Origin: a virus
Virus record (IMG/VR): IMGVR_UViG_3300023184_000257
Span: 1 to 40,625 of that record
DNA length: 40,625 nucleotides
Direction: 5' to 3' (one strand)
Of this stretch, positions 8,401-35,560 are shown piece by piece (within the stretch, counting starts at the first letter, position 1; every line of letters starts with the position of its first letter). A model generated the notes under the pieces. It was not told the origin of the DNA. It did not search any database and saw nothing but the letters and a program-made list of their open reading frames with translations. The translations under genes were made by a program, and so were the position numbers.

Positions 8401-8647
8401 ATCAAGTTTTAATATCTCTTTTGGTGGAACCCCATTAACTTCTTTATCAAGTTTTACACTTGAATTAGTGCAAGATTCTACTGGAGGAAGAACTGTTGCA
8501 TGGTTATTTTTTGGAAAAACGCTTAAATGGGCTAATGGAGTTCCTCCCACACAAACAGTAACTGCTTTTAAATCAGACATATACACATTTATAACTCGTG
8601 ACTTTGGAGCTTCGTATTATGGATTTGTCAGGGGTCAAAACTTCTAA
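5429..8647 (+). CDS. large tail fibre protein with GGTG repeats
   Basis: A 1072-residue fibre. The N-terminus (KISALPVASSVSDADIVVI) shares the attachment module of the fibre gene at 3915. At least six phage-fibre repeats with the core GGTG followed by TTQQAALN or similar lie between residues 45 and 690. Two larger beta-rich domains interrupt them (about 325-475 and 695-880), both containing ..VLV/VVL..Q.A.QNG..V/ILT. segments, so they look like diverged copies of one module. The C-terminal ~100 residues end with a KW.NG..PTQT...D...F pattern seen at the tips of many phage fibres. It likely determines host range with the other two fibre genes. Confidence 0.8.
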   Translation: MADIKISALPVASSVSDADIVVINQSGVTKTATRGLVNTPTGILPVANGGTGVSISSGASSVVLRDSSQNITANAFFNNVSSITASGTPIVLTVASAPVSLVTGSGGQVIKLPDATTLTNGTIFSFNNNQSSGAISVNNNSNTLVVSVPSGGYTTVVLLSNATAAGSWDRHDQSPSNVSWSTNTFDYLGSITSATWDGVTVAVNRGGTGATSAASALVSLGAQAALTSASPLALSQGGTGQTTQQAALNALAGAVTANQVLKGNGTNVSLAALTSADIPTLPISKLTGVAASGANSDITSVGLATGTVSTTPSGVTDIVNKAYADSIGSGINFHDACDYGTIAVLSPTATYNQPGGAGVGVNATLTGQTNTALQIDGVTVAVGKRVLVKNQTSAVQNGVYNVTQQGDGSTVPYILTRASDYDTSGSGTNEVQAGDFILILNSTLANTAWVQQTPAPIIFGTTNISFIQFAAAAAGVSSFNTSLTGLTPSTNTTGTVTLAGTLGIASGGTGTTTQQAALNAISGTQTAGYHFRSDGTNVSLQPLSLADVTAGTLGVVYGGTGATTQAAALTSLGAQAALTTAAPLALDKGGTGQITYTDGQLLIGNTATGGLSKATITAGSNVTVTNGNGTITIASTGGAAGVSSFSAGTTGLTPNTATTGAVSLAGTLAIANGGTGQTTNELARNVLGSIQAVVVRHASALVLQSVGTITSAVFTSGSAVVTFVTTTATLAVGQSLSSGITTGVIKSIDSPTQITMSATAGATTTVNPTVYNSTISTLVSSSIVTMDSRTIVVGDVVLLGAQSATAQNGPWILTSLAGSVMSFVRPSYWSGTIFGNTLFYVQQGPTYFGQIATVTGGVSTGSSVGVDAFTVYTAVNRGNVATLSANTYTAVQTFVANSPTGSAPFKFLGSGSGLNTTPIAHQVEWDGSTMYVTNASSIRNSLFYGSGGTFTGAVALKSLFETAANPNISAGTITLDLSTASYFNVTLSSNVSSFNISFGGTPLTSLSSFTLELVQDSTGGRTVAWLFFGKTLKWANGVPPTQTVTAFKSDIYTFITRDFGASYYGFVRGQNF

Positions 8648-23660: not shown

Positions 23661-24307
23661 ACATTTCGATCAAAGTTACCTATGCCTCAGGCACTGTCAC
23701 CGAAATACTCATTCCTTGGGAGGAAAAGGCACTGACTGCTGTCTCCTATCTAGGAGAGGAGGACAAGGGGGTAGAAACCCCCTCCAAGACGCAGGAAGAG
23801 CTAGATGCCGAGTTCTCTTCGGATTACAAATTGCAGCAAGACGACTTGAGGCCAAGCGGCAATCGGTACAAGTCAGTTGCTGATCTTGCAGATAGTTTAA
23901 ATATTGTTAGGGAAAAGGAGGAGGGGAAGGGGATTGGTAGGATAGGGGGTGTGGGGGAAAGGAAGGAAAGGGGTGGGGAGGAGGAAAAACCCGACCAAGA
24001 AATTGACTTGTCACAAGTCACCTTCGATACCCAGACCACTTGTTATCAAGTGCCACTCAAGACCCTCAACGACTTCATCGCCGCTTACGGACTTGAGGCA
24101 GTCAAACGTGAGTTCCCGCTTGCCAAGGCTTGGCTATCGGCAAATCCCAAGAAGCGCAAGACCCATCAAGGGACAGGTAGGTTTTTAAATGCTTGGTTAA
24201 GCAGGGCACAACAACCTGTGCATTTTATCGACTACAAAGCTGCCATGAAAAAACCAGAGACTGGCAGTCTGCTTAGTCCATCAACCGACAGTCAGGAGGG
24301 TTGGTAA
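23657..24307 (+). CDS. replisome organiser / helicase loader-like protein
   Basis: A 216-residue protein in two parts joined by a charged linker. The N-terminal ~75 residues are acidic; the linker (about 85-115) is Glu/Lys/Gly/Arg-rich and encoded by a pure purine tract. The C-terminal part has AYGLEAVKREFPLAKAWLSANPKKRKTHQGTGRFLNAWLSRAQQ, close to the C-terminal pattern (Wl.aNp.kRKt....FL..WL) of phage replication-initiation or helicase-loading proteins. It directly precedes the DnaB gene with a TAATG overlap, as in classical initiator-helicase pairs. Confidence 0.6.
   Translation: MNISIKVTYASGTVTEILIPWEEKALTAVSYLGEEDKGVETPSKTQEELDAEFSSDYKLQQDDLRPSGNRYKSVADLADSLNIVREKEEGKGIGRIGGVGERKERGGEEEKPDQEIDLSQVTFDTQTTCYQVPLKTLNDFIAAYGLEAVKREFPLAKAWLSANPKKRKTHQGTGRFLNAWLSRAQQPVHFIDYKAAMKKPETGSLLSPSTDSQEGW
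23909..23989 (+). other. G-rich polypurine tract inside the replisome-organiser gene
   Basis: About 80 bases consist almost entirely of G and A on the + strand, with several runs of four or five Gs (for example GGGGG at 23945 and 23953), and could form a G-quadruplex or triplex. It encodes a repetitive charged linker. In lambda the origin lies inside the initiator gene O, so this tract is a second candidate origin element, by analogy only. Confidence 0.4.
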
Positions 24308-24957
24308 TGCAAATCCCACTTGCGACTGAATCAGAACGTAGCATTGCTAGCGTTGCGCTCAATAATCCAACCACGTTTCTAAATATACTTGATGAAAAGC
24401 GTTTTAAGATATCAGACATATTTGATGCATTGAGCAGAGCAATCGTTGAGGTTGTCTTAGATTTAACCTCTCGATCTGTTGCTGTAGATGTTAGAATTGT
24501 ATTTGAAAGTATACGTGAACGTATACCGACAACTCAATTTTCTGAATTAACGCTTATTTATACCTTGATGCCGATTGAGGGGGCATTACCAAACCTGCTT
24601 GATATTGTTAAAGCCACTGCGAAGCGTAGAGCTTTGCTGATGGTCATGCAGGAGGGGCTGGCGAAGATTGATACGTATGACGTTAAGACACCTGACCTAG
24701 TGAACCAAGTGCAGATGAAGGTTGATGCAATTCAGAACGAGTTGAATCCTCCTGCCATCATGGATACTAAGGCCATCATCATGGAACGTCTGCACATTTA
24801 TGAAACAGGCGGTGACCAGTCTCAGCGGATTCAGACAGGGTTTGATAAATTAGATAACCTTACCCCGATACGACTTGGTGATTTTGTAGTTATCGGCGGT
24901 GAAACAAAAAGCGGTAAAACAATGTTAGCGTTGAATATTATAGCACATCTATTATGA
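24307..24957 (+). CDS. dnaB: DnaB replicative helicase, N-terminal half (split gene)
   Basis: A 216-residue polypeptide covering the DnaB N-terminal domain (about 1-110), the linker helix and the beginning of the RecA-like motor. GFDKLDNLTPIRLGDFVVIGG leads to the Walker A motif GGETKSGKT (197-205). It stops 11 residues later, at ALNIIAHLL, where an intact DnaB would continue into SLEM. The missing remainder is encoded at 28743. I chose ATG 24307 over TTG 24301 because an AGGAGG at 24294-24299 is seven bases upstream and the ATG overlaps the previous stop. No intein-like sequence is attached to the C-terminus. The TGA overlaps the next gene's ATG (ATGA 24954-24957). Confidence 0.85.
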   Translation: MQIPLATESERSIASVALNNPTTFLNILDEKRFKISDIFDALSRAIVEVVLDLTSRSVAVDVRIVFESIRERIPTTQFSELTLIYTLMPIEGALPNLLDIVKATAKRRALLMVMQEGLAKIDTYDVKTPDLVNQVQMKVDAIQNELNPPAIMDTKAIIMERLHIYETGGDQSQRIQTGFDKLDNLTPIRLGDFVVIGGETKSGKTMLALNIIAHLL

Positions 24958-25277
24958 CAAAAATCGTAAACTTAACCCCACACACTATAAATGTGGCGGG
25001 GCATACACCAATCAATGCTTCTGGTGAAATAGCCAGAGTCAACTTTCAGATCATCCAGACAGGTGAGATTGAAGGGATACCAGTCATGGAAACCTTAGCT
25101 CATGGCATCAGTGGACTTCCATCTGAAGCACAAGACACAGTGTACATTGTACCAACAATGGTAAGACAATACTTCCCAAAGCGTCGTGACTTGTTGTCAC
25201 CAGCAAAGCTTCTGCGAAATAGTGTTGGAGCAGTGGTTGGATGCGTTGGATTTGAGATTAACCCAGAACTAAAATAA
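24954..25277 (+). CDS. conserved hypothetical protein (NLTPHTI family)
   Basis: A 107-residue protein beginning KIVNLTPHTINV, a start I recognise from a widespread but uncharacterised family in phages and bacteria, with later EIEGIPVMETLAHG and DTVYIVPTMVRQ segments. It is the first gene inserted between the helicase halves and overlaps the N-half stop by four bases. No function can be given. Confidence 0.65.
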   Translation: MTKIVNLTPHTINVAGHTPINASGEIARVNFQIIQTGEIEGIPVMETLAHGISGLPSEAQDTVYIVPTMVRQYFPKRRDLLSPAKLLRNSVGAVVGCVGFEINPELK

Positions 25278-25279
25278 AT

Positions 25280-25588
25280 ATGAACGACGAAATAGAAGAA
25301 CAAGAAGAAGAATTAACAATCGAGCAAAAGCTCCGAAATGAACTAGCATGGCGAACGCTGGAACGGGATCGAGCATTGGCTACTATTAAAAATCCACCAC
25401 CATGTCTTCAATGTCAGGCTTATGAACGTGAGATTTCTGTCTTAAATAATCTTAATTTAAAATTAGCCGTAAGGAATGATAAGCTTGAAACCATGCGCGA
25501 GGCATTAAGACAAGCAAGCCTTGGTGAGTTGTGTGGAATTGAATGCGCTGACCCTACAGATTTGACAGGATTGGAGGAACGGGAATGA
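25280..25588 (+). CDS. coiled-coil protein with CxxC
   Basis: A 102-residue acidic protein predicted as coiled coil (EEQEEELTIEQKLRNELAWRTLERD and a later VLNNLNLKLAVRNDKLETMREAL), with a CLQC motif at about residue 42. It shares its general layout, not close identity, with the small helical proteins at 26803 and 27287. Its stop overlaps the next ATG. Confidence 0.5.
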   Translation: MNDEIEEQEEELTIEQKLRNELAWRTLERDRALATIKNPPPCLQCQAYEREISVLNNLNLKLAVRNDKLETMREALRQASLGELCGIECADPTDLTGLEERE

Positions 25589-25803
25589 CCAACGAACAGA
25601 TTAACGAAATGATTTCTGTAAATGGATATATATATTCTTCAGTCAAACAAGCAACAGAAGTTTACATTGATTGGCAAGAAGATGGAGGAGAAGCATTTGC
25701 TGCGCTGATTGATATATTGTTTGAGAAGAAAATCATCAACACTGCTGATCTTGAAAGATTGTTCAAAATTGAAAAACACACAGTGAAGGAGGTGCAGATA
25801 TGA
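25585..25803 (+). CDS. small protein with MTNEQIN start
   Basis: A 72-residue acidic protein that shares only its first seven residues, MTNEQIN, with the genes at 25800 and 26973; the rest differs. A GGAGG lies upstream of the ATG, and both ends overlap neighbours by four bases. The shared start suggests recombination that joined the common 5' end to a new body. Confidence 0.55.
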   Translation: MTNEQINEMISVNGYIYSSVKQATEVYIDWQEDGGEAFAALIDILFEKKIINTADLERLFKIEKHTVKEVQI

Positions 25804-26129
25804 CCAACGAACAGATCAACGTAGCGATTGCTGAAGCGTGCGGGTGGGCAGACATCACGCGGATTACATCAAATGGTTGGTTGCACAAAAAGTTGGTAGG
25901 CACACACAAGGGGATGCCAGTGACCTTTGACGTGCATACGCCAATACCAGACTATTGCAACGATCTAAACGCGATGCACCAAGCGGAGGAAACTCTCCCA
26001 GATGGCGAGTTGTGGACGATGAAGTACAATCTGCCGTCGCAGGGAGGGCTTGAGTTTAGGTCAACAGCCCGTCAACGCGCAGAGGCATTTTTGCGGACGC
26101 TTGGCAAATGGGAGGAGGTGCAGGGATGA
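25800..26129 (+). CDS. phage ABA-sandwich-like protein, copy 1
   Basis: A 109-residue protein with INVAIAEACGW near the start and DYCNDLNAMHQAEETL in the middle, then RQRAEAFLRTLGKWEE at the end. This pattern recalls the Phage_ABA_S/DUF2591 group, which has no known function. The gene at 26973 is a paralogue with the same three blocks. A strong AAGGAGGT precedes the ATG. Likely an accessory protein. Confidence 0.6.
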   Translation: MTNEQINVAIAEACGWADITRITSNGWLHKKLVGTHKGMPVTFDVHTPIPDYCNDLNAMHQAEETLPDGELWTMKYNLPSQGGLEFRSTARQRAEAFLRTLGKWEEVQG

Positions 26130-26806
26130 ACGTCATGCCTGCAAATGCAACAGGCTGGTTCTGGCATTGCCTAGCCCGCGAGACTGGTAGGATTGGTCAT
26201 TTATTTAGCCCAGACGCTCAGCGTGGGCCGTGGCCGTGGATGCCTTATGCTTTGGATAACGGTGCATTTGCGGCTTGGGACATGGCCGCTAATATCTGGG
26301 ACGAATCCAAGTGGGATGTTCACGCTTGGCGAAGAATGATCTTTTGGGCACAGGCTCAGGAGCAATTACCACTCTGGGCCATTGTGCCGGATTGGATTGG
26401 AGACGGTCAGCGCACCATCGAGCGTTATCACCAATTCAAGGCTGAAATTCCATTTCCGCTAGCACTAGCAGTGCAAAACGGAATGACGGCAGAGGCAGCT
26501 CGTGAATTAAACCCAGACGTGATTTGCGTGGGCGGAACGACTGAGTGGAAGTGGGAAACCGTTGAAATGTGGGTAAAAGAGTTTCCGCGAGTCCATGTTC
26601 TTAGGGTCAACAGTCCTTCAAAATTAGATTATTTGGAATCCCTTGGAGTGGAAAGCTGTGACGGCACAGGCTGGAATCGCGGAAGTCGCGATCAAACCAT
26701 AGGACTGGAACTTTGGGCAAGAAAAAACCCTAACCCACGCACAGACTTGCTGACTCCGTTTACCTGTAGACAAGCTAAAGATAAATTACAAATGACATTC
26801 GCATGA
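26126..26806 (+). CDS. DpdA-like (TGT-type) putative DNA base-modifying enzyme
   Basis: A 226-residue protein from ATG 26126, preceded by GGAGGAGGT. Motifs: ALDNGAF (42-48), VPDW (87-90), QNGM (117-120), VGGTTEWK (135-142), HVLRVNS (157-163), CDGTGW (178-183). The order of strands with Asp at their ends fits a TIM barrel and resembles the DpdA/queuine transglycosylase-related proteins of phages, which exchange guanine in DNA for a 7-deazaguanine base. It is shorter than tRNA transglycosylases and lacks an obvious zinc site. No preQ0 synthesis genes are present, so the base would come from the host. The family assignment is from memory and not certain. Confidence 0.55.
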   Translation: MNVMPANATGWFWHCLARETGRIGHLFSPDAQRGPWPWMPYALDNGAFAAWDMAANIWDESKWDVHAWRRMIFWAQAQEQLPLWAIVPDWIGDGQRTIERYHQFKAEIPFPLALAVQNGMTAEAARELNPDVICVGGTTEWKWETVEMWVKEFPRVHVLRVNSPSKLDYLESLGVESCDGTGWNRGSRDQTIGLELWARKNPNPRTDLLTPFTCRQAKDKLQMTFA

Positions 26807-26976
26807 CACATCCACACGATTTGCACAAAAACTGGGAATTACAGAAAGAAATTGAATCCCTCAAAGCCAAACTGCAAGAAGCTCTTGAGCGCATCCGCGA
26901 CTGCGACTGGGTAATTACGCCGCATGATCGTATGGACGCTGTGCGGGCGATTGCGCGGGAGGAGGGAGAAGTATGA
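26803..26976 (+). CDS. small helical protein, copy 1
   Basis: A 57-residue protein with ATGA overlaps at both ends. A coiled-coil start (LQKEIESLKAKLQEALE) is followed by RIRDCDWVITPHDRMDAVRAIARE. The same block occurs in the protein at 27287 (CIRDCDFVITLPDRMDAVRAIARE), so this is the partner gene of the duplicated ABA-sandwich unit. Function unknown. Confidence 0.6.
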   Translation: MTHPHDLHKNWELQKEIESLKAKLQEALERIRDCDWVITPHDRMDAVRAIAREEGEV

Positions 26977-27290
26977 CCAACGAAAAGATAAACGCAGCGA
27001 TTGCTGAGGCGTGTGGGTGGTGCTTTGAGTATGGGCATTGGGTATTGCGAGTCTCCGGGAAATTGACGCGCAGCCGATACGAATTGCCAGACTACTGCAA
27101 CGACCTTAACGCAATGCACGAAGTGATTACAGCACTACCAAAAGAACGCAGACATAATTATTTAGGGTATTTATTTGAAGTGGTAAACGTAAAGAAAGTT
27201 GGAGAAATATTTAACGCACACAACGCAACCGCCCGACAACGCGCAGAGGCATTTCTGAGGACACTAGGCAAGTGGGAGGAAGAGAAATGA
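26973..27290 (+). CDS. phage ABA-sandwich-like protein, copy 2
   Basis: A 105-residue paralogue of the gene at 25800, with INAAIAEACGWCFEY, DYCNDLNAMHEV and RQRAEAFLRTLGKWEE. The middle has diverged. A GGAGGGAG sits upstream and both ends overlap neighbours by four bases. It heads the second copy of the two-gene unit. Confidence 0.6.
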   Translation: MTNEKINAAIAEACGWCFEYGHWVLRVSGKLTRSRYELPDYCNDLNAMHEVITALPKERRHNYLGYLFEVVNVKKVGEIFNAHNATARQRAEAFLRTLGKWEEEK

Positions 27291-27487
27291 ACGAAGCAGG
27301 TGAACAAATTCTGCTGCATAGGATCAAGTCACTGGAGTGGCTGATAGATGTTAAGACCGAACAACTCCATAAATTTAAAAACGCCCTTGAGTGTATCCGC
27401 GACTGCGACTTCGTCATCACGCTACCAGACCGCATGGACGCAGTGCGGGCCATTGCGCGGGAGGCGTTGAAATGGACATCCAATTAG
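27287..27487 (+). CDS. small helical protein, copy 2
   Basis: A 66-residue protein, the paralogue of 26803. The N-terminal helix differs, while the DCDFVITLPDRMDAVRAIAREAL block is shared. The ATG at 27287 has a GGAGG upstream and overlaps the previous stop; an in-frame TTG or GTG further upstream is not needed. Confidence 0.6.
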   Translation: MNEAGEQILLHRIKSLEWLIDVKTEQLHKFKNALECIRDCDFVITLPDRMDAVRAIAREALKWTSN

Positions 27488-27687
27488 ATCAAAACACGAT
27501 CATTAGTGTTCCTGATTTGCCCGGAATACAGATTGTTGTAAACGGCAAAATCTGGAGCTTTGACTACAGTAAGTATTGGGGGCCGATTTGGCTTAAAAAA
27601 GATGGGACTGATAGAAAATGTCAAAATCCAAACAAAGCAGTTTGGAAGGCATTTGAAGAATGGAAGAATAAACACGAACACAAATAA
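27472..27687 (+). CDS. small hypothetical protein
   Basis: A 71-residue protein starting at ATG 27472, which overlaps the previous gene by 16 bases; GGAGG lies upstream. It has VPDLPGIQIVVNGKIWSFDYSKYWG and a basic C-terminal helix. A longer in-frame start at 27391 would run antiphase through the preceding gene and is less likely. A 16-codon frame (27694-27744) follows and may be a leader. Confidence 0.5.
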   Translation: MDIQLDQNTIISVPDLPGIQIVVNGKIWSFDYSKYWGPIWLKKDGTDRKCQNPNKAVWKAFEEWKNKHEHK

Positions 27688-27749
27688 TTAAACATGACTA
27701 CACAAGAAATAATTGTCGCAGCACGGGAAGAGAAATCTAAGTAAATAAT

Positions 27750-28514
27750 ATGAAACCAACAATAATAACAGACAGACCGATGGCTCACTACAGAGCAGAT
27801 GAAGGGTTGAGCAAGCATCAGTTCGACAATTTTCTTGTCGCTCCTGCTTACTACAAGTTTAAGCAGACTAAAGAGTGGAAGCCGTCCCGTGAGATGATCC
27901 TTGGAACCTGCATTCATTCCCTCGCCATCGAGGATAGGATTGATTATGCGGTTGGGCCGAGCGTAGACAAGCGCACCAAAGCAGGGAAAGAAGAGTGGCA
28001 AATTTTCTGTGAAGAGAACATGGGTAAAGAGATTGTCACCGCCGAGGAAGAGGCAAGGATCACAAACAGTAGCTACAAAGCCAGACAGCTTTTGGGTAGT
28101 TGCAAGATTCAGCACATTGAAAGCTCTATGTACTGGGAACGGGGTGGCGTTCTTTGCAAGGGACGACCTGATATCATTGGCGAGTTCAACGGCAGACCTG
28201 CAATTGTTGACCTTAAGACAACCTCTGATTTCAACAAGTTTGACCAGAAATTTTGGTCATTCAACTACGACCTGCAAGCAGCATGGTATCAACGTGGGTT
28301 GATGGAGATCATAGGCGCACAGTGCGACTTCTGGTTTCTGGTTGTTGATACTGAGGAACCGCATTTTGCCCAGTGGGTTCTTTTATCCAGCGAGGCTATC
28401 GAAAAAGCGAATGCCAGAATTGATGATGGGTTGGAGCAGTATCTTGACTGTGTAGAAAACAATCATTGGCCTGAACCTCCGCTCACCAGAGTCTTGATGA
28501 GCAAATACGCATGA
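27750..28514 (+). CDS. RecE/PDDEXK-type phage exonuclease
   Basis: A 254-residue nuclease. GTCIHSLAIE (52-61, His56), KGRPDII (Asp141), IVDLKTT (Asp154, Lys156) and QAAWYQ (176-181) follow the order of RecE/Cas4-like exonucleases, which resect double-stranded DNA for recombination. It likely works with the ssDNA-binding protein at 22212. No single-strand annealing protein is recognisable next to it. No Shine-Dalgarno motif is seen. It overlaps the next gene by four bases. Confidence 0.75.
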   Translation: MKPTIITDRPMAHYRADEGLSKHQFDNFLVAPAYYKFKQTKEWKPSREMILGTCIHSLAIEDRIDYAVGPSVDKRTKAGKEEWQIFCEENMGKEIVTAEEEARITNSSYKARQLLGSCKIQHIESSMYWERGGVLCKGRPDIIGEFNGRPAIVDLKTTSDFNKFDQKFWSFNYDLQAAWYQRGLMEIIGAQCDFWFLVVDTEEPHFAQWVLLSSEAIEKANARIDDGLEQYLDCVENNHWPEPPLTRVLMSKYA

Positions 28515-28846
28515 AAGTATTACTCAGAAGAACAGAGGTGATTGATAATTCCGTGCAGTTGCCTCGACCAAAGGTTACTCAGGAGGTGGTAGTCGTTGGA
28601 AGTGAAGCGGGGTGCAGGGCAATACTTGATGATATGGCCCTGCTCCCTGAGAATCAGAGTTCAGAACAAATCGAAGTCACCCTGTACATAACCAAGTGGC
28701 AGGGACAGCAAACACATAACAGTCAAACATTTACAAAAAACAATGGAAAAAGGAATATTGATAGTGTCGTTGGAAATGCCAGCAAGCCAGATCATCGACA
28801 GGCTCGTCGCGAAGATAGGAAACGTCCCGTTAAGAAGTCTGTCTGA
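28511..28846 (+). CDS. hypothetical protein with tail overprinted on the helicase
   Basis: A 111-residue protein. The first ~77 residues (with VVVVGSEAGCRAILDDMALL) are encoded before 28743 and the last ~34, very basic, are read in a different frame over the start of the helicase C-half. This fits a gene that arrived with the cassette and now ends wherever the helicase DNA happens to give a stop. No function is recognised. Confidence 0.5.
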   Translation: MKVLLRRTEVIDNSVQLPRPKVTQEVVVVGSEAGCRAILDDMALLPENQSSEQIEVTLYITKWQGQQTHNSQTFTKNNGKRNIDSVVGNASKPDHRQARREDRKRPVKKSV

Positions 28847-29342
28847 AGGAGTTAAGACAGAAGCTGAGATGCGCGGAGTGCAGAAGGCACTCACTAAACT
28901 AAGTCAGAGTAAACTTGTGGTGCGTGATGATCTGTATGACATTTCAAGCATTTGTGCTACAGCTAGAGCAATGGCAAAGAGTCAGACGGGATTGTCCCTT
29001 TTGTTCGTGGATTACCTGCAATTGGTTCGGTGCGATCTTGGGCGCAATTCAACTCGTGAACAAGAGGTGGCTGAGGTGAGCCGCACGCTTCGTTTACTAA
29101 GTCTTGAGCTAAACTGTCTGGTGATTTCCATCACTCAGCTAAATGAACAGGGTAAGTCTCGTGAGAGTCGGTCAATCCAACAGGACGCAACGGCCATTAT
29201 CACGATCAAGATGGAAGAGGGGAAAGAGAACTCCGAGAACAGAACTATTGTGATACCTTACCAGCGAAATGGCCCTTGTGGAGTCCACACAACGCTAAGA
29301 TTTAACGGACGCACGGCATCATTTTTAAACCACCATGAGTGA
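28743..29342 (+). CDS. dnaB: DnaB replicative helicase, C-terminal half (split gene)
   Basis: A 199-residue polypeptide with the rest of the RecA-like motor. It has SLEM (9-12, catalytic Glu11), Walker B LLFVDYLQL (Asp90), TQLNEQ (131-136), RSIQQDAT and QRNGPCG (174-180). These are the DnaB motifs H1a to H4, without Walker A. Together with the N-half the total is 415 residues, close to a full DnaB. The only in-frame ATG or GTG/TTG after the upstream stop at 28689 is 28743. Codons before it still read VKHLQKT, so helicase-like sequence continues a little upstream of the start. No Shine-Dalgarno motif is present. Confidence 0.85.
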   Translation: MEKGILIVSLEMPASQIIDRLVAKIGNVPLRSLSEGVKTEAEMRGVQKALTKLSQSKLVVRDDLYDISSICATARAMAKSQTGLSLLFVDYLQLVRCDLGRNSTREQEVAEVSRTLRLLSLELNCLVISITQLNEQGKSRESRSIQQDATAIITIKMEEGKENSENRTIVIPYQRNGPCGVHTTLRFNGRTASFLNHHE

Positions 29343-29895
29343 AAAACCAAAAAAACAAAAGCGGTACAAATCACCTGAGACAAAAGCAAGGCAGCTTGCT
29401 GGTTTGTCTGGGGTCAGAATCGAGGATCACGTTGAAGGATGCGGGCACATTGAAAAGATCAATGGCAAAGGTGATTGGGCTTCCGTGTCAGAAGAGCAAC
29501 GAAAACAAATCCTAAATTTGTACTGTGCAGGGAACACGATTACTGCGATTGCCGACAAACTCAACCTCAGTAAGACAGTGGTCGGTGATGTTAAACTTCG
29601 TGCGCTTGATACCGATACTCAGTTTGCGAATGCCATGTTTAAGGTGAACATTCGCAGGAAGCTTCAGAATGTTGCTGACTTATCTGCCGATAAGGTAGTG
29701 GAGTTGATCCCAGAGATGAACGCACGGGATGCGACACTTGCTCTATCCAAAAGCATCGAAGCATTAAGCCAAATGGAAGCGGTGAAGATGCCAGAGGTAC
29801 AGGTAAACCACTTGCACCTTCACGCTTCAGACATTCAAAGACAATTTTTAGAATACATGGGAGAATCAGAAGAACAAAAAACAATAGACATATGA
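29335..29895 (+). CDS. helix-turn-helix protein, possible small terminase
   Basis: A 186-residue protein. The N-terminus is very basic. Residues ~63-92 read as a helix-turn-helix (ILNLYCAGNTITAIADKLNLSKTVVGDV), and a long helical region follows (NVADLSADKVVELIPEMNARDATLALSKSIEAL), with an acidic end. A DNA-binding N-terminus with oligomerising helices fits the small terminase subunit, which is otherwise missing. It may equally be a transcription factor. It overlaps the helicase C-half by eight bases. Confidence 0.5.
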   Translation: MSEKPKKQKRYKSPETKARQLAGLSGVRIEDHVEGCGHIEKINGKGDWASVSEEQRKQILNLYCAGNTITAIADKLNLSKTVVGDVKLRALDTDTQFANAMFKVNIRRKLQNVADLSADKVVELIPEMNARDATLALSKSIEALSQMEAVKMPEVQVNHLHLHASDIQRQFLEYMGESEEQKTIDI

Positions 29896-30218
29896 CACAA
29901 CACGAATTCACATTCGACGCAAAGAAAAAGATGACGATCATGGAAAGGTTTTCCATGTTCCACGAAAAGAACCCGCACGTTTACACAACGCTGGTTGAGA
30001 TGGCGAGGAAGGCGAGCAAGAACGGGACAAAGCAATGCAGCATTGCCATGCTCTTTGAGGTGCTGAGGTGGCGGACAAACATTGAGACAGAACGGATAGA
30101 TGAATTCAAGATAAGCAACTGTCTCCGTGCGCCTTACGCGAGACATATTATGGCAGAAAACCCAGAGCTTGCAGGAATCTTCAACCTTAAAACAAGTGAA
30201 ACAGACGACCACTTTTAA
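29892..30218 (+). CDS. conserved phage protein (FHxxNPxVY family)
   Basis: A 108-residue protein with FSMFHEKNPHVYTTLVEMARKA, EVLRWRTNIET and APYARHIMAENPELAGIF. I recognise this as a small family common in phage replication and recombination blocks, of unknown function. ATGA overlap with the upstream gene. Confidence 0.6.
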   Translation: MTQHEFTFDAKKKMTIMERFSMFHEKNPHVYTTLVEMARKASKNGTKQCSIAMLFEVLRWRTNIETERIDEFKISNCLRAPYARHIMAENPELAGIFNLKTSETDDHF

Positions 30219-30220
30219 AC

Positions 30221-30430
30221 ATGAAGGTGATCTACAAAAAATACGGGTACGATGCGCGGGTTGATCGGATTGGTTGCGTGATTGTCTCACGAGATAACAA
30301 AGGCGCAGTCAATGCAACGCTGGTTGGCGAAAAGCATCCGTCCCAAGATTGGAGAGAAGTAAAGCTGTTTGGTTGTCCAGACAATATCAGACAGGAAATA
30401 ATCGAAGCTCACGATAAGTATTTAAGCTAA
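30221..30430 (+). CDS. small hypothetical protein, last rightward gene
   Basis: A 69-residue protein (KVIYKKYGYDARVDRIGCVIV) without a recognised domain. It starts two bases after the previous stop and is followed 15 bases later by a strong bidirectional terminator, so it closes the rightward replication operon. Confidence 0.55.
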   Translation: MKVIYKKYGYDARVDRIGCVIVSRDNKGAVNATLVGEKHPSQDWREVKLFGCPDNIRQEIIEAHDKYLS

Positions 30431-30444
30431 GATACGGACACAAA

Positions 30445-30476
30445 AAAGCCCACCCTGACTAAACGGGGTGGGCTTT
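30445..30476. terminator. bidirectional Rho-independent terminator
   Basis: An 11-bp perfect stem (AAAGCCCACCC 30445-30455 with GGGTGGGCTTT 30466-30476), a 10-base loop, A-run on the left and T-run on the right. It sits between convergent genes ending at 30430 (+) and 30493 (-), so it serves both strands. Confidence 0.9.
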
Positions 30477-30492
30477 CTGTTGTCTAGTTGTC

Positions 30493-30789
30493 TTACTTTT
30501 TAAATAAGAGAGCGTTAAGGAATGCTTGTGATGCGGCAATTGCTGTGGCAATTGTTGCGCGTCCCTTAAATATGGGTTCACTCACTTCAAATCCATCGCC
30601 TTGGCTTTCACCAAATCGGTAAACCGAGTATCCTTTTTTGGGGCTGAAGTCATAGTGAAAGTTCCCCTTGTTTGGAGTCGCTTTACCCTCAGAGGTTGTC
30701 CAAGGAAATTCAGGTGATCCAGTTGTCTTGTTAATTTCAGACAATATTTTGTCGAGTTTGTTTTTGGTATTGTTGTCGAATTTATTCAT
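30493..30789 (-). CDS. hypothetical protein, leftward arm
   Basis: A 98-residue protein. The N-terminus is Lys/Asn-rich and helical, the middle has FPWTTSEGKATPNKGNFHYDF, and the C-terminal ~25 residues form an Ala-rich helix. It is the last gene of the leftward arm. No function is recognised. Confidence 0.55.
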   Translation of the reverse strand: MNKFDNNTKNKLDKILSEINKTTGSPEFPWTTSEGKATPNKGNFHYDFSPKKGYSVYRFGESQGDGFEVSEPIFKGRATIATAIAASQAFLNALLFKK

Positions 30790-30820
30790 CGGTTTGGTTT
30801 GGTTAAATGCGGTTTATTCC

Positions 30821-30867
30821 GCTTGCATCCCCCTGCTTTAAGACAAGGGGATGACAGCGAGGCAAGC
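30821..30867 (-). other. intergenic hairpin
   Basis: CATCCCCCTG (30826-30835) pairs with CAAGGGGATG (30844-30853), nine of ten positions, within an outer GCTTGC/GCAAGC pair (30821-30826, 30862-30867). It lies after the stop of the leftward gene at 30871 and before the next leftward start, so it may attenuate or stabilise the transcript. Confidence 0.5.
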
Positions 30868-30870
30868 CGT

Positions 30871-31218
30871 TTAGTACTCCTCAGGAAGAAGGATTGTGGT
30901 AAGCTTCCTATCCCATTCTGTGATTACATACAGCTTCTTTCCCTCCGCTGACTTGTACGCTGACAAGATCCTTTCCTCACCGATTAGTGCAAGGTTGTTG
31001 CTTTCCTTATCCTCTTCATCCAAATCGCCCCAGTCGCCTAATGTGTGGCGAGTGATGCACAAGATTACAAAGGCTTGTGTGAAGTTTTTGGTGATGCCTT
31101 GGGTGACGCATACATCACCCAGTTCAAATTTCCCCTGCCCGCTTGAGATTGCGGCCATCGTTTGAACGTCTTTTTCGTTCTTGGGTTCACTTAGTTCGAT
31201 TGCGATTGTGATTTTCAT
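30871..31218 (-). CDS. conserved plasmid/phage accessory protein
   Basis: A 115-residue protein with a strongly patterned C-terminal half: CITRHTLGDWGDLDEEDKESNN, then RILSAYKSAEGKKLYVITEWDRKLTTILLPEEY. This pattern (RH..GDWG...DK..N; ILSAY; ITE.DR..TTILLPEEY) belongs to a family common on plasmids and phages, annotated only as conserved hypothetical. Two TGTCT repeats (TAAGACA in the mRNA sense) lie just upstream of its start. The role is unknown. Confidence 0.7.
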   Translation of the reverse strand: MKITIAIELSEPKNEKDVQTMAAISSGQGKFELGDVCVTQGITKNFTQAFVILCITRHTLGDWGDLDEEDKESNNLALIGEERILSAYKSAEGKKLYVITEWDRKLTTILLPEEY

Positions 31219-31237
31219 TTTGTCTTATTTGTCTGAT

Positions 31238-31411
31238 TTATTTTCGGTTAATGTAGATATCGATTGCGGTTGCCCATACCATCAAGGCTAGTATAGCACA
31301 GCCAAGAATACTCATGCATTCTATAAAAGAAAGGTGAGCGAAACGCAAGAGTATTCCATCTAGCATGAACAAAGCCATGCAACATACTGCGATTATAATT
31401 AGTGTTTTCAT
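31238..31411 (-). CDS. 57-aa membrane protein
   Basis: A short gene with two probable transmembrane segments (TLIIIAVCCMALFML and MSILGCAILALMVWATAI) separated by a short loop with DGILLRFAH, and a KT start and NRK end. Its leader has two TAAGACA motifs directly before the ATG. A small inner-membrane protein in an early arm could be a superinfection-exclusion or host-takeover factor; that is inference. Confidence 0.6.
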   Translation of the reverse strand: MKTLIIIAVCCMALFMLDGILLRFAHLSFIECMSILGCAILALMVWATAIDIYINRK

Positions 31412-31428
31412 TGTCTTATTGTCTTAGG

Positions 31429-31599
31429 TTATTCGTTTGCTTCTGGGAAAATACCGAACATTCCTTCAGCAATATCCATGCGGTCTTAATACGTCATAGA
31501 TTCAAACGCTTCCAAAGTGTCTAAGCCAATCGGGTCAACGTATTCCCCCCATAGGATGAAGCTTTCGCAGATGGCTTGTAGTGTCGGTCTTTTATTCAT
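31429..31599 (-). pseudogene. small gene with in-frame stop
   Basis: Translation from ATG 31599 reads 37 residues (KRPTLQAICESF....LDTLEAFESMTY) and meets TAA at 31488-31486. The same frame continues with DRMDIAEGMFGIFPEANE to a second TAA at 31431-31429, immediately before the TAAGACA leader of the next gene. A CAA to TAA change would explain it. It may be a nonsense mutant, an assembly error or a genuine short gene. Confidence 0.45.
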
Positions 31600-31637
31600 G
31601 TTTTTATTTAGTGTTTAAAGGAGCGGGATTGCTCCCT

Positions 31638-31667
31638 ACTGCTTCCCCCGTTTATAGGAGAAGCAGT
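31638..31667 (-). other. intergenic hairpin
   Basis: ACTGCTTC (31638-31645) pairs perfectly with GAAGCAGT (31660-31667), with two further inner C:G pairs. It lies immediately after the leftward gene ending at 31679. There is no T-run on the transcript side, so it is a possible attenuator or mRNA end-protecting stem. Confidence 0.5.
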
Positions 31668-31678
31668 CTGGGAACTAT

Positions 31679-31975
31679 CTATCGCTTACAGATTGCTGAT
31701 TCTAAAGCATCAAAGCAAGTGAAGGGGAAAAGTAGCGCAACGTCATTCCCCTTAGCTAGGCACGCCCTTGCTAGTGGCACTGCTTCTACTTTCCTGAGAT
31801 AGTCAACGGCTATGTCTTCGCATGAATTAAAGGCGTGGTCATAGGGAATGAATCTGCTTTTCCCTTTGAGAGGAAACGTCAGCTTTACCCGTGATCCCTT
31901 TATGTTAGATGCGGGAACATACGAAACGATTATGCTGACTAGGTTCTGTGGTGCTTGTGGTGCTTGTGGTATCAT
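31679..31975 (-). CDS. hypothetical protein, leftward arm
   Basis: A 98-residue protein with IIVSYVPASNIKGSRVKLTFPL, DHAFNSCEDIAVDYLRKVEAVPLARACLAKGNDVALLF and a CFDALESAICKR end. No family is recognised. The reading frame is open end to end and its start is preceded by a TAAGACA leader motif, as in neighbouring leftward genes. Confidence 0.55.
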   Translation of the reverse strand: MIPQAPQAPQNLVSIIVSYVPASNIKGSRVKLTFPLKGKSRFIPYDHAFNSCEDIAVDYLRKVEAVPLARACLAKGNDVALLFPFTCFDALESAICKR

Positions 31976-32023
31976 ACTTTTGTTTGTCTTAGGTTGTTTG
32001 TGCTGTCTTGTCTGATCAGCCTG

Positions 32024-32053
32024 CTAGCCTCTCCCTTTTTAGGGAAAGGCTAG
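32024..32053 (-). other. intergenic hairpin
   Basis: CTAGCCTCTCCCT (32024-32036) pairs with AGGGAAAGGCTAG (32041-32053), 12 of 13 positions, around a TTTT loop. It follows the stop of the VWA-like gene by about 15 bases. It is the third hairpin of the same placement in this arm. Confidence 0.55.
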
Positions 32054-32066
32054 ATAGCCAGTCAGT

Positions 32067-32846
32067 CTACTGCTCGTTCAGCTTAGCAAGCTGCTTCTGA
32101 ATCCATTTAACAGGCTGAGTGATCAACTCGTCAGTGTAATGCGCCTCGCCTAGTACTATGTCAGAGGGGCTAGCGTTGACTAGTTTGCGAACGTCTCGCT
32201 CGGATGCCCATCCTCCACAAAAGCCAGTCTTAGCGTACCCAAAGCTCATGGCAAGCGTCCTATCGAATGAGCAAGCACTGAGACAGTGAGCAATCCGAGC
32301 CATATCTACGGGTGCTGTAGGCATGCGCACCATCAGACAGGTTGAGCCGTTATGCTTAGCGTTTCCATCAAGCTTTGTGAATGTCCAAAGCTCTATGGGT
32401 CGACCCTGCTTCACAAGCTGCATGACTAGGGCTAATGCGACTATGCCACGTTTGAGCAGGATGTCCGCTGAGACTCCTGCACTGCTTGTGGTACAGACAA
32501 AGACTCGCACAGGTGCTTTTTCGTTTGGGCGCACCAGACGCGCTCTCATGCACTCAGGGTCACCAGACAGGAAAGCTGGAATGTCTGGGTAAGATCCTGC
32601 TACTTGGTACGTCCAATCGGGGCTCTCATTATCTAGCTCAGCTTCTATCTGTGACAGCAAAGCCTCAGCTTTTGGGATTAGGTCAAGATTGCCGAATTTC
32701 GTACGCTCCAACGTCTGAGCGTATGTCTCGCCTACCCATCCCGCATCATGCCTGCTAGATGGATTGGAGACTGCTAAAACGTCAGCGAGGAAAGCGTCAG
32801 GGGAATCCCAGACGTACCGAAAAGAATCACGCTTATAGTTTTCCAT
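32067..32846 (-). CDS. VWA-like protein paired with the AAA+ ATPase
   Basis: A 259-residue protein. From residue ~114 the order VRVFVCTTSSAGVSADILLKRG (strand, loop, helix), ALALVMQLVKQGRPIELWTF and a later FGYAKTGFC fits the von Willebrand A fold. The metal site normally reads DxSxS; here the first Asp is Cys or Thr, so metal binding is doubtful. The N-terminal ~110 residues are helical. It lies directly after the MoxR/CobS-type ATPase, a pairing known for MoxR-VWA and CobS-CobT complexes that remodel or insert metals into targets. Substrate unknown. The leader carries two TAAGACA motifs. Confidence 0.65.
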   Translation of the reverse strand: MENYKRDSFRYVWDSPDAFLADVLAVSNPSSRHDAGWVGETYAQTLERTKFGNLDLIPKAEALLSQIEAELDNESPDWTYQVAGSYPDIPAFLSGDPECMRARLVRPNEKAPVRVFVCTTSSAGVSADILLKRGIVALALVMQLVKQGRPIELWTFTKLDGNAKHNGSTCLMVRMPTAPVDMARIAHCLSACSFDRTLAMSFGYAKTGFCGGWASERDVRKLVNASPSDIVLGEAHYTDELITQPVKWIQKQLAKLNEQ

Positions 32847-32880
32847 GATCTTTGTCTTAGTGTCTTAGCTTCTGTTCTGA

Positions 32881-34059
32881 CTACTTGCTGACCCGATCCC
32901 AGACAGCTTGATCCAGTCCTTTCCTGAGCCTGCTCTCGATGGCTTCTTCCCAAGTCAATCCTGCATGAAGCAGGGCGCATCCTCCAATGGATGCTCTGGG
33001 ACTGACTACGTGCTTAACACTGCCTTCAGAGGCTATCTTGGAGCGTACCTTCTGCACCAAGTCGACCCATTGATTGCCAAGCGTCTTATCTTCGATCCTG
33101 CCTAGGGCTAGCACACGCTCCAGCGTCTCATCGACGTCCCAACGGATCATGCAAAAGCGATCCACAAAAGCAGCATCAGGCTTGTAGCGTCCATTATACT
33201 CAGCGGTTGCTCCTTGTCCTATCGTGTTTGCACCAGCGATGCACACAAAGTTTGGATGCTTACGCACTGCGCCATCAGGAAAGTCCACGATCCCATTGGC
33301 GAGAGCAGCATTGAAGGCAAGCAAAGCCTGAGGCAAAGACGCATCCACCTCGTCAAAAAGATAGACCCCACCTTCTGTCCATGCCTTACGAAACGGGCGT
33401 GAAACAATACGGCCCTGAGCGTCGATAAAGCCAAGAAGCTTGTGCTCACTGTCCAAGGCTCCGTTGAAGTGGAATTCCAAGCCTAGCACACTGGCTACTT
33501 GCTCCGCTGCGGTTGTCTTACCCGTACCCGCAGGGCCGACGAGCCAAATGTTATCACCTGAGCTTACAGCCTTGAGAAGCTTGGTAAACGTCTTGTGTGC
33601 CAATGCCTGTTTATGCTCTCCAGAGTGCCTGTCCTTGTATTCAACTCGGACAGGTTGAGCTTGTGAGTGCAGCTTAATGAGCTCAATGACTTTAGTCTCA
33701 TCAAGCTCAGCTTTTCCACCCTTAGCTTTGTTGAGAATGTCTAGTAGTACCTGAGCATCAGACAGAGTAACGCCACTAGCCTGAGCCTTGGGCTTTTCCT
33801 CAGCTTCAACTCTAGCTTCTTGAGCTTGTACGGCTTGGGAATTCGGAAGCTTGCCCGCAAGTATATCAGAGAGAAGTGAATCCGATAGGTCGAGCCAGAT
33901 AGCGTTAAGCTCACTCATTTGTAAGCTGTCTACTGTGACCGAGCTAACGCCTTTAAGCTTAAGCCATTGGCGACCAGCTTTGCGGGCTTCTAAGCCTCTC
34001 AGAGGCTCAAGACGGGTATAAGTGATATCGTTTTGTACGTGTATGTTGTTTGTGTTCAT
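32881..34059 (-). CDS. MoxR/CobS-type AAA+ ATPase
   Basis: A 392-residue AAA+ protein. Walker A GPAGTGKT (175-182), Walker B VYLFDEVD (232-239), sensor-1 Asn278 in CIAGANT, Arg301 in FVDRF as probable arginine finger, and a helical lid after 330. The N-terminal ~130 residues are charged and helical, probably for target or partner binding. The form is closest to the MoxR/CobS group, which acts with VWA proteins; a VWA-like gene follows 34 bases downstream. It has a C-rich leader facing a G-quadruplex motif on the other strand. Confidence 0.8.
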   Translation of the reverse strand: MNTNNIHVQNDITYTRLEPLRGLEARKAGRQWLKLKGVSSVTVDSLQMSELNAIWLDLSDSLLSDILAGKLPNSQAVQAQEARVEAEEKPKAQASGVTLSDAQVLLDILNKAKGGKAELDETKVIELIKLHSQAQPVRVEYKDRHSGEHKQALAHKTFTKLLKAVSSGDNIWLVGPAGTGKTTAAEQVASVLGLEFHFNGALDSEHKLLGFIDAQGRIVSRPFRKAWTEGGVYLFDEVDASLPQALLAFNAALANGIVDFPDGAVRKHPNFVCIAGANTIGQGATAEYNGRYKPDAAFVDRFCMIRWDVDETLERVLALGRIEDKTLGNQWVDLVQKVRSKIASEGSVKHVVSPRASIGGCALLHAGLTWEEAIESRLRKGLDQAVWDRVSK

Positions 34060-34071
34060 GTTTATTGGATT

Positions 34072-34092
34072 GGGTTTGGGTTTGGGTTTGGG
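34072..34092 (+). repeat. perfect G3-T3 repeat (G-quadruplex motif)
   Basis: Four GGG runs separated by TTT (34072-34092) on the + strand, in the 39-base gap between two leftward genes. It fits the strict G-quadruplex rule. The corresponding mRNA of the ATPase gene carries a CCCAAA leader, and the G-rich strand is the template strand for leftward transcription. Confidence 0.75.
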
Positions 34093-34098
34093 TGAAGC

Positions 34099-34353
34099 TT
34101 AGGAGATGTAAGAGACAAGCTCATAGAGCCCATTCTCTGAACGGTAGATGGATGCATGAGCGTATTGCTTGGTACGCTTGCCCTTAAGCGTCTCAAGCTC
34201 TCTATGATCTTGAATTGTTTGCCCGTATGAAACAGGGGAGATGAAGGTATACATTTCGCAGAAGTCGTCGACGAAGACGCCTCCGTTGTCGTGTACGTAT
34301 TCAATATGGGCTCGCAGAGCATCAGCTAGTGTGTCGAAGTAGTTTGAGTTCAT
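34099..34353 (-). CDS. small hypothetical protein, first leftward gene
   Basis: An 84-residue protein from ATG 34353; an in-frame TTG 15 codons upstream would place the start inside the promoter and is rejected. It contains YFDTLADALRAHIEYVHDNGGVFVDDF and GKRTKQYAHASIYRSENGLYEL. It is the first gene downstream of the leftward promoter, 37 bases from the expected transcription start. No function is recognised. Confidence 0.6.
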   Translation of the reverse strand: MNSNYFDTLADALRAHIEYVHDNGGVFVDDFCEMYTFISPVSYGQTIQDHRELETLKGKRTKQYAHASIYRSENGLYELVSYIS

Positions 34354-34396
34354 GGCTTTATCGTTTTTTTTAGGATTAATATGAGACTGAGCCTGC

Positions 34397-34428
34397 AATA
34401 TAGGGTATCACACTGACAATCGTCAATG
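34397..34428 (-). promoter_or_regulatory. leftward sigma70-type promoter with overlapping dyad
   Basis: On the - strand TTGACG (34426-34421) and TATATT (34402-34397) are 18 bases apart, a near-consensus housekeeping promoter reading into the gene at 34353. A dyad, CACTGACAATCGTCAATG (34411-34428), covers the -35 box and could be a repressor operator. Confidence 0.6.
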
Positions 34429-34684
34429 TCTGTTTGCATTATTTGTTCAATTTATTTTTCCCCCTCTAGAATGAGCAGAAACAATGCTTAATAGGAGTTT
34501 GCTTGTCTTGGCTATAGCCTATCTCAGACAGCGAGAAACAGCCCTTCACGGGGCTTATACGAACATGACTTGTAAGTGTCTTATTTGCAACGGCTTACAA
34601 GCGCATTTTCTTGAGAGTATGCGTATTATGGCATGGAATGCATGAAAGCCAGGTGTGCAAGGGTCAGGCATGGCATGACGTACA

Positions 34685-34771
34685 GGGTGGGACACGGCAT
34701 GGCATAGGTAGGGTAGGACATAGGTTGACTGACAGGGTAGGACATTCAGTGTCGCAGGTAGGGTAGGACAT
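34685..34771 (+). repeat. four iteron-like 11-bp repeats
   Basis: GGGTAGGACAT occurs exactly at 34711-34721, 34735-34745 and 34761-34771, with a variant GGGTGGGACAC at 34685-34695. Starts are 26, 24 and 26 bases apart. The last two extend to a shared TAGTGTC or CAGTGTC. Such spaced direct repeats are typical initiator- or repressor-binding arrays. Confidence 0.7.
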
Positions 34772-34845
34772 TTAGTGTCTGGGGATGCGTCCACAGCCTT
34801 AGCCTCTGCTCTCATGCAAGCCGTCCGAATCAGACAACCTGTCCT

Positions 34846-34964
34846 TGTCTTAGCCTCTCCCCGCTCTCCCCTGCTTTCCCCTGCTTTGCTCCCTTGCTCC
34901 CCAAGCCATGCCATGCAAGCCAAGCCAGCGATCCAAACAAGCTCAGGAAAGCGAGGCTAAGACA
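34846..34964. repeat. 12-bp inverted repeat around a pyrimidine tract
   Basis: TGTCTTAGCCTC (34846-34857) and its exact complement GAGGCTAAGACA (34953-34964) enclose a strongly pyrimidine-biased tract on the + strand (34854-34902). It may form a cruciform or be a binding-site pair. Confidence 0.6.
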
Positions 34965-35125
34965 TGGAGACAAGACAAGCCAGACAGAGAGCGGGGGAGG
35001 GGGTCGACAGGCCGGCCCTATATGAAAATTGCAATGCAACCACCCACCTGAAAAATTTTTGCACTACAAGACTTGCCTACCAGCAAAATTTGCCGTAGGA
35101 ATGTGTATAGAAATTGAACACACCT

Positions 35126-35560
35126 ATGTCCATTAAATTTACAGTACCTGAAATTGACGTTAAGAATCGAGATGGAGACAAGTACAGCATCGACTTGTAT
35201 CGTGAGGGAGAAGATTATGTGGAACGCAAGTGCTTCACATCTTTCAAGCGAGTGTTTCGATTTGACATACTTGACGCAAGTGTTGTTGAGGACTTGCAAG
35301 TACCAAGTGACTTACAAGTGCCAAGTGTAGATGATGAGTGTAAAGAAATTGAACACAATCCTCAGACTGGTGGACATGGAGTGAAGACTTGTAAGGTGAG
35401 GCGCATCCATGTAAACAATCGTTGGATTGAAACTGACATAGGCAAGATTTGGGTAGGAGCAAAGGGAAGCAGCCTAAAGGTTGGTCAGATTATTAGGGTA
35501 TTGAATGGAGAGTTATTTTTGAAGCGCACCGAACCTAACCAAAGTCTTGTAAGAATTTGA
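35126..35560 (+). CDS. hypothetical protein, first rightward gene after control region
   Basis: A 144-residue protein from ATG 35126; an in-frame TTG at 35114 is possible but less likely. It has a beta-rich N-terminus (SIKFTVPEIDVKNRDGDKYSIDL), a tandem DLQVPS repeat near residue 55-65, and a C-terminal part with ETDIGKIWVGAKGSSLKVGQIIRVLNGELF that resembles a small OB- or SH3-like barrel. Function unknown; possibly an early regulator. Confidence 0.55.
   Translation: MSIKFTVPEIDVKNRDGDKYSIDLYREGEDYVERKCFTSFKRVFRFDILDASVVEDLQVPSDLQVPSVDDECKEIEHNPQTGGHGVKTCKVRRIHVNNRWIETDIGKIWVGAKGSSLKVGQIIRVLNGELFLKRTEPNQSLVRI

Follow-up and report, generated by a model that had tools for sequence, protein, structure and literature searches.

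What might a virus do with a MoxR/CobS-type AAA+ ATPase whose neighbour resembles the VWA partners of such motors and reads CTTSS where a metal site is expected? The question is raised by positions 32067-34059 of IMGVR_UViG_3300023184_000257, a 40.6-kb virus record that we analysed over its whole length (40,625 nucleotides, hereafter the window). We consider it probable that the two proteins are a motor and an adaptor in the manner of NorQD, in which the adaptor retains its finger and holds on to its target in a metal-free way.

The motor and its gene block

The two ORFs lie on the minus strand, 34 bp apart, where the earlier note on this DNA had placed them: the ATPase (P0002, 392 aa) at 32881-34059 and its partner (P0001, 259 aa) at 32067-32846. 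Both are part of a block of some six minus-strand ORFs, running from 34398 to 30493, with an exonuclease and a DnaB-like helicase encoded in the block on one side and portal and head genes in that on the other. The block also holds small ORFs on the same strand: one of 99 aa upstream of the ATPase (34099-34398), with no PHROG match, and, downstream of the pair, one of 98 aa that is kept in close relatives (31679-31975), one of 115 aa (30871-31218), and the last gene of the block, of 98 aa (30493-30789). It ends at a bidirectional intrinsic-terminator-like hairpin between converging blocks (30445-30476; 13-bp stem, T-rich tails on both strands). A promoter-like site precedes it (34426-34397), and such sites are no commoner in the window than in shuffled sequences. 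The suggestion that one early arm drives both genes is plausible, but these promoter-like sites do not prove it. The Kayvirus transcriptome papers that we checked for timing of expression do not mention the ATPase by name in their text.

The DnaB-like replicative helicase of the window is split into two plus-strand ORFs (24301-24957 and 28743-29342), 3.8 kb apart, with the break directly behind the Walker A helix (the parts cover phrog_19 positions 154-377 and 382-578). The same split is found in locus L003 (99-100% identical) and, with parts ~1.8 kb apart, in the more distant L005 (61% and 77% identical). We saw no intein-like tail on these parts and no Rfam intron in 24800-35300.

P0002 matches Pfam AAA_5 (E 4.9e-9) and phrog_249 (E 6e-52), a family annotated as ‘porphyrin biosynthesis’. 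Its core AAA+ set is complete, and the elements are invariant or nearly so among 86 non-redundant relatives. These include the Walker A motif GPAGTGKT (aa 175-182, 33514-33537), of which G175, G180, and K181 are invariant and G178 nearly so; the Walker B motif LFDEVD (aa 234-239, 33343-33360), with D236, E237, and D239 invariant; the sensor-1 N278; and the invariant arginine finger R301 (33157-33159) and sensor-2 R355 (32995-32997). The AF2 model (pLDDT 88.9) contains the helix-2-insert hairpin (aa 206-222, 33394-33444), with strands at 211-212 and 218-219, and its best Foldseek matches are NorQ (E 6e-14, TMt 0.75) and CbbQ. In the PDB, a profile of the ATPase finds midasin, CobS, and CbbQ. 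By motifs and by fold, P0002 is a MoxR/CobS-type (helix-2-insert) AAA+ ATPase, as had been proposed from the letters alone.

The N-termini of these ATPases vary between phages (L007, L008, and L107). Several are cysteine-rich and zinc-ribbon-like, whereas aa 1-70 of P0002 form a non-Cys domain that AF2 predicts with confidence. In the record of Sinorhizobium phage phiM5 (L006), an ORF nested in the ATPase gene (1349-1546 within 885-2090) is listed as ‘detected in phage particle proteome’; the peptide may in fact have come from the ATPase and been assigned wrongly.

Distribution of the pair in viruses and bacteria

P0001 belongs to DUF7192 (PF23822; E 1.7e-20, 73.9 bits for a Pfam gathering cut-off of 27) and to phrog_1909 (E 7.3e-22), whose function is unannotated; the literature that we searched does not mention DUF7192. 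We scanned viral sequences with each protein and kept the best 80 matches of each scan, 169 sequences in all, which are samples and not a census. Within these matches, the ATPase is present in 77/77 loci seeded on DUF7192, and DUF7192 in 73/78 loci seeded on the ATPase. The partnerless ATPases run to a contig end in all cases but L107, a genuine exception. Chance would not produce a pairing of this order. The ATPase is followed by DUF7192 in annotated phages of Sinorhizobium (phiM5), Mycobacterium (Silverleaf and Lumos), Gordonia (Sephiroth), Tunturiibacter (Tunturi_4), and Staphylococcus (Kayvirus); in Enterococcus phage vB_CECAV_04 the DUF7192 gene lies upstream of the ATPase instead. The DUF7192 profile also finds partners in Listeria phages P70 and LP-064, in an Acinetobacter phage, and in a crAss-like phage. 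Other neighbours in the phage loci are mostly lineage-specific small genes, with an exonuclease and DnaB present in subsets.

Among the matches listed, nine viral loci seeded on DUF7192 encode one ATPase and two DUF7192 proteins. This fits an adaptor role for DUF7192 and suggests that the two proteins are exchangeable adaptors for one motor. Examples come from Mycobacterium phage loci, L010 among them (3938-4765 and 7600-8460), where one DUF7192 gene lies beside the ATPase and the second a few kb away.

The pair is not specific to phages. A query from the window's own group found no relative in bacterial genomes; a broader query group gave matches, in 51 DUF7192 loci of Streptomyces, Saccharothrix, Glycomyces, Flavobacteriia, Bacteroidales, Thalassobacillus, and others, of which 48 have the ATPase nearby. 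In the tree of the ATPase, the bacterial copies form one actinobacterial clade, one Bacteroidota clade, and scattered singles; we used the tree for these clades alone, the CobS outgroup not being monophyletic. No third gene is common to the bacterial loci. Read by eye, the translations next to the pair suggest fmt and RNase Y in Flavobacterium swingsii (L200) and pheS in a Saprospiraceae (L208). In L200 a response-regulator-like gene is directly upstream of the pair; in Epilithonimonas (L211, 4791-8786) a response-regulator-like gene and a McrC-like gene precede the pair, and in L213 a recombinase gene lies near it (the last two loci also read by eye).

Could the pair be a conflict module, used for counter-defence or competitor exclusion in phages and carried by bacteria as a mobile anti-phage or accessory module? 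It is patchy in bacteria, where it occurs in 1/199 Streptomyces genomes and 6/249 genomes of the Flavobacterium-containing family of L200, and it is a stand-alone two-gene unit without conserved neighbour; both features, and the recombinase and McrC-like genes just mentioned, would fit such a role. A previous study describes MoxR-vWA conflict systems (PMC7159879). Yet neither protein has an effector or nuclease domain, and the existence of two phylum-level bacterial clades suggests long residence. Among PADLOC models, none matches DUF7192 and the ATPase has weak generic AAA matches only, which also counts against this role. We find it possible, if doubtful. A known anti-phage defence system was rejected as an identity for the pair, given that DUF7192 has no PADLOC match.

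A function as a virion-assembly chaperone is unlikely. The precedent is the viral MoxR-VWA pair p618/p892 of ATV, which interacts with virion proteins and has been proposed to remodel tail proteins (PMC4124505), and the pair of the window does adjoin the packaging/head block. However, the phages that carry the pair differ widely in morphology and host and have no common structural neighbour, and there are no virion genes near the stand-alone bacterial copies that we read (L200 and L208). The particle mark of phiM5 sits on the nested ORF only and not on the pair, which argues weakly in the same direction.

Fold, finger, and metal site of DUF7192

AF2 models P0001 with high confidence (pLDDT 94.1, pTM 0.88). 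The top Foldseek matches of this model in the PDB are the NorD VWA domains of NorQD complexes (E 5.5e-4 to 2.4e-3, probability 0.90-0.99), with low TM-scores (0.25-0.30). In a viral library, the matches that come after other DUF7192 proteins are CobT/VWFA proteins (E ~1e-5). The CobT of a cobavirus, used as a query of viral contigs, found no relative, and we therefore drew CobT sequences from annotated records and built a profile of ten CobT finger and VWA regions. This profile aligns with DUF7192 over aa 87-183, from the finger to the second strand, with a score of 43. The controls stay far lower: 150 block shuffles reach 23.5 at most, 150 column shuffles 18.2, and reversed profiles 18-19. 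The finger and the first strand are in register: PDIPAFLSGDPECM in DUF7192 aligns with KRLVAAAQGDRSVF in CobT, and VRVFVCTTSS with VTVLVDLSGS.

We found no match to VWA Pfam models in any of 97 DUF7192 members, and nothing significant when the DUF7192 profile was compared with PDB sequences. The C-terminal half of the VWA domain is not recovered, because the CobT alignment stops at aa 183, and we thus call DUF7192 VWA-like and not a VWA domain. By Foldseek and by profile alignment, it looks like a reduced VWA domain. That it is instead a generic alpha/beta fold that happens to stand beside an AAA+ protein, as the TM-scores and the lack of a VWA sequence match might be read, seems improbable: the PDB structures that match best are the very VWA proteins that partner MoxR ATPases, the CobT score is far above the shuffles, and the finger and first strand align in register. 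The earlier note had named a non-VWA fold and lack of co-occurrence in related genomes as observations that would speak against it; we found a VWA-like fold, though reduced and with low TM-scores, and near-total co-occurrence.

The most conserved segment of DUF7192, G84-M100, matches the ‘finger’ of NorD and CobT. By its position and by the CobT profile match, it sits just before the first VWA strand. In P0001 the putative pore-inserting finger is VAGSYPDIPAFLSGDPECMRAR (aa 82-103, 32538-32603), a signature of the family: over 226 members, G84 is conserved in 100%, P97 in 97%, and M100 in 91%. The metal site has a different fate. P0001 reads CTTSS (aa 118-122, 32481-32495) at the expected position of DxSxS, aligned with DLSGS of CobT, and does not have the DxSxS-T-D pattern of a MIDAS. 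The observation of CTTSS in the earlier note was correct, but this is no peculiarity of the window phage: the first MIDAS position is Asp in only 16 of the 226 DUF7192 domains, 8 of which (including phiM5) have DxTxS, so the loss is general across the family. Judged by this conservation, selection keeps the DUF7192 finger and not the metal site. True CobT proteins of phages retain DxSxS. One of them is the ‘peptidase’ of the T4-like cyanophage S-RIM44 (L169, 1059-3194), a CobT-type protein with an intact DWSGSM; this annotation error for CobT in cyanophages has already been pointed out (PMC8651126).

Finger-pore covariation and a candidate mechanism

In NorQD, the VWA finger lies inside the pore of the hexamer, bound by the H2 inserts, the C-terminus of the adaptor contacts the post-sensor-1 loop, and turnover of ATP makes the adaptor twist (PMC13036017). 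If DUF7192 works like NorD, covariation is expected between its finger residues and two elements of the ATPase, the pore loop and the H2 insert. We analysed 121 non-redundant ATPase/DUF7192 pairs (Neff 86) with an entropy filter, since invariant columns give artefacts. ATPase aa 195-222 and finger aa 81-103, two regions fixed beforehand from the NorQD study, covary: at the four entropy cut-offs used, the circular-shift p lies between 1e-4 and 6e-3. Enrichment is also seen in a wider pore set, of which aa 238-250 were picked after a first look at the covariation; it persists when residue 87 is left out and, judged by mean z, in each residue-87 subgroup. Between the post-sensor-1 region and the VWA body there is an excess of strong pairs (p 0.004-0.006), and the mean is not significant, a weak sign of the second NorQD contact. 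Shift nulls leave phylogeny in, and the finger-pore covariation is thus support for the contact and not proof of it.

Among known systems, NorQ/NorD is a MoxR AAA+ ATPase with a VWA finger adaptor that serves in Fe insertion into nitric oxide reductase. The window pair is like it in motor fold (TMt 0.75), in the H2 insert, and in the putative finger just before the first VWA strand, and its covariation fits the NorQD contact. It differs in that DUF7192 lacks the MIDAS and the large N-terminal domain of NorD and has a reduced C-terminal half, and in that there are no nor genes near the pair. NorD mutants of the MIDAS keep NorQ binding and lose target maturation (PMC9976466), which implies that loss of the site need not break contact with the motor. 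CobS/CobT, the aerobic cobaltochelatase pair also found in phages as cobST, has a related motor, and the finger and first VWA half of CobT align with DUF7192, but CobT retains DxSxS and a large N-terminal region, and CobN is missing from half of the tested bacterial genomes with the DUF7192 pair. ATV p618/p892 and orf66/orf63 of Bacillus phage 0305phi8-36 are, as here, virus-encoded MoxR ATPases with a second subunit; together with phage cobST, they make viral MoxR-VWA pairs something already known. ATV p892 carries a recognised VWA domain, unlike DUF7192, and the Foldseek match of P0001 in the comparison with these viral partners is weak (rank 48, E 0.1). CbbQ/CbbO, RavA/ViaA, and midasin belong to the same AAA+ clade and follow the same VWA-partner logic, and all their partners are, to our knowledge, MIDAS-bearing VWA proteins.

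The PHROG name, the presence of true CobS/CobT in some phages, and the proposal that viral CobST hijacks host CobN (PMC8651126) could make the pair a cobaltochelatase helper that borrows CobN and raises cobalamin supply for DNA synthesis, but this is very improbable: DUF7192 lacks the metal site of CobT and is unmatched by CobT models, of 14 bacterial genomes that carry the pair, 7 lack CobN and 13 lack CobT, and the pair is frequent in phages of Staphylococcus and Listeria. We found no match to CobN or CobT (CobT_C) models in the window record, and the cobaltochelatase reading of the PHROG name was rejected on this ground and on the lack of CobN in those seven genomes; the same counts contradict the metal-insertion role of CobST type that had been considered for the locus. 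S. aureus itself is not known to make cobalamin, which also counts against a helper of this kind.

The NorQD-like motor-adaptor reading can be put as a mechanism. The AAA+ protein would form a hexameric ring, and the finger of DUF7192 (aa 82-103) would enter its pore and be held there by the helix-2 inserts, with the DUF7192 body docked close to the post-sensor-1 loops. By hydrolysing ATP, the ring would rotate DUF7192 and pull on it, and the force would pass on to a target protein bound through a DUF7192 surface other than a metal site. Our computations show the pairing of the genes, the identity of the motor, the VWA-like fold, the homology of the finger, the lost metal site, and the finger-pore covariation, so that the architecture is well supported; the hexamer, the direct contact, the transmission of force, and the action within the cell are inferred from them. 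In a phage, the pair would most likely act inside the infected cell, on a protein complex of the host or of the phage, and not in cobalt insertion. A broader claim, which we make tentatively and think conceivable, is that DUF7192 founds a second class of MoxR adaptors, with the finger kept and the metal adhesion site lost. Found in phages of hosts from several phyla and in stand-alone bacterial modules, this class may be a metal-independent machine for takeover or conflict that dismantles a widely conserved protein complex.

These results offer a candidate mechanism for a very common phage pair that databases label as ‘porphyrin biosynthesis’ and ‘unknown function’, and that is present in therapy phages (Kayvirus) and in teaching phages (mycobacteriophages). 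DUF7192 would separate the engagement of the motor from the metal grip on the target, which always go together in known VWA systems partnering MoxR ATPases. The finger-in-pore model thereby becomes testable in a natural metal-free variant.
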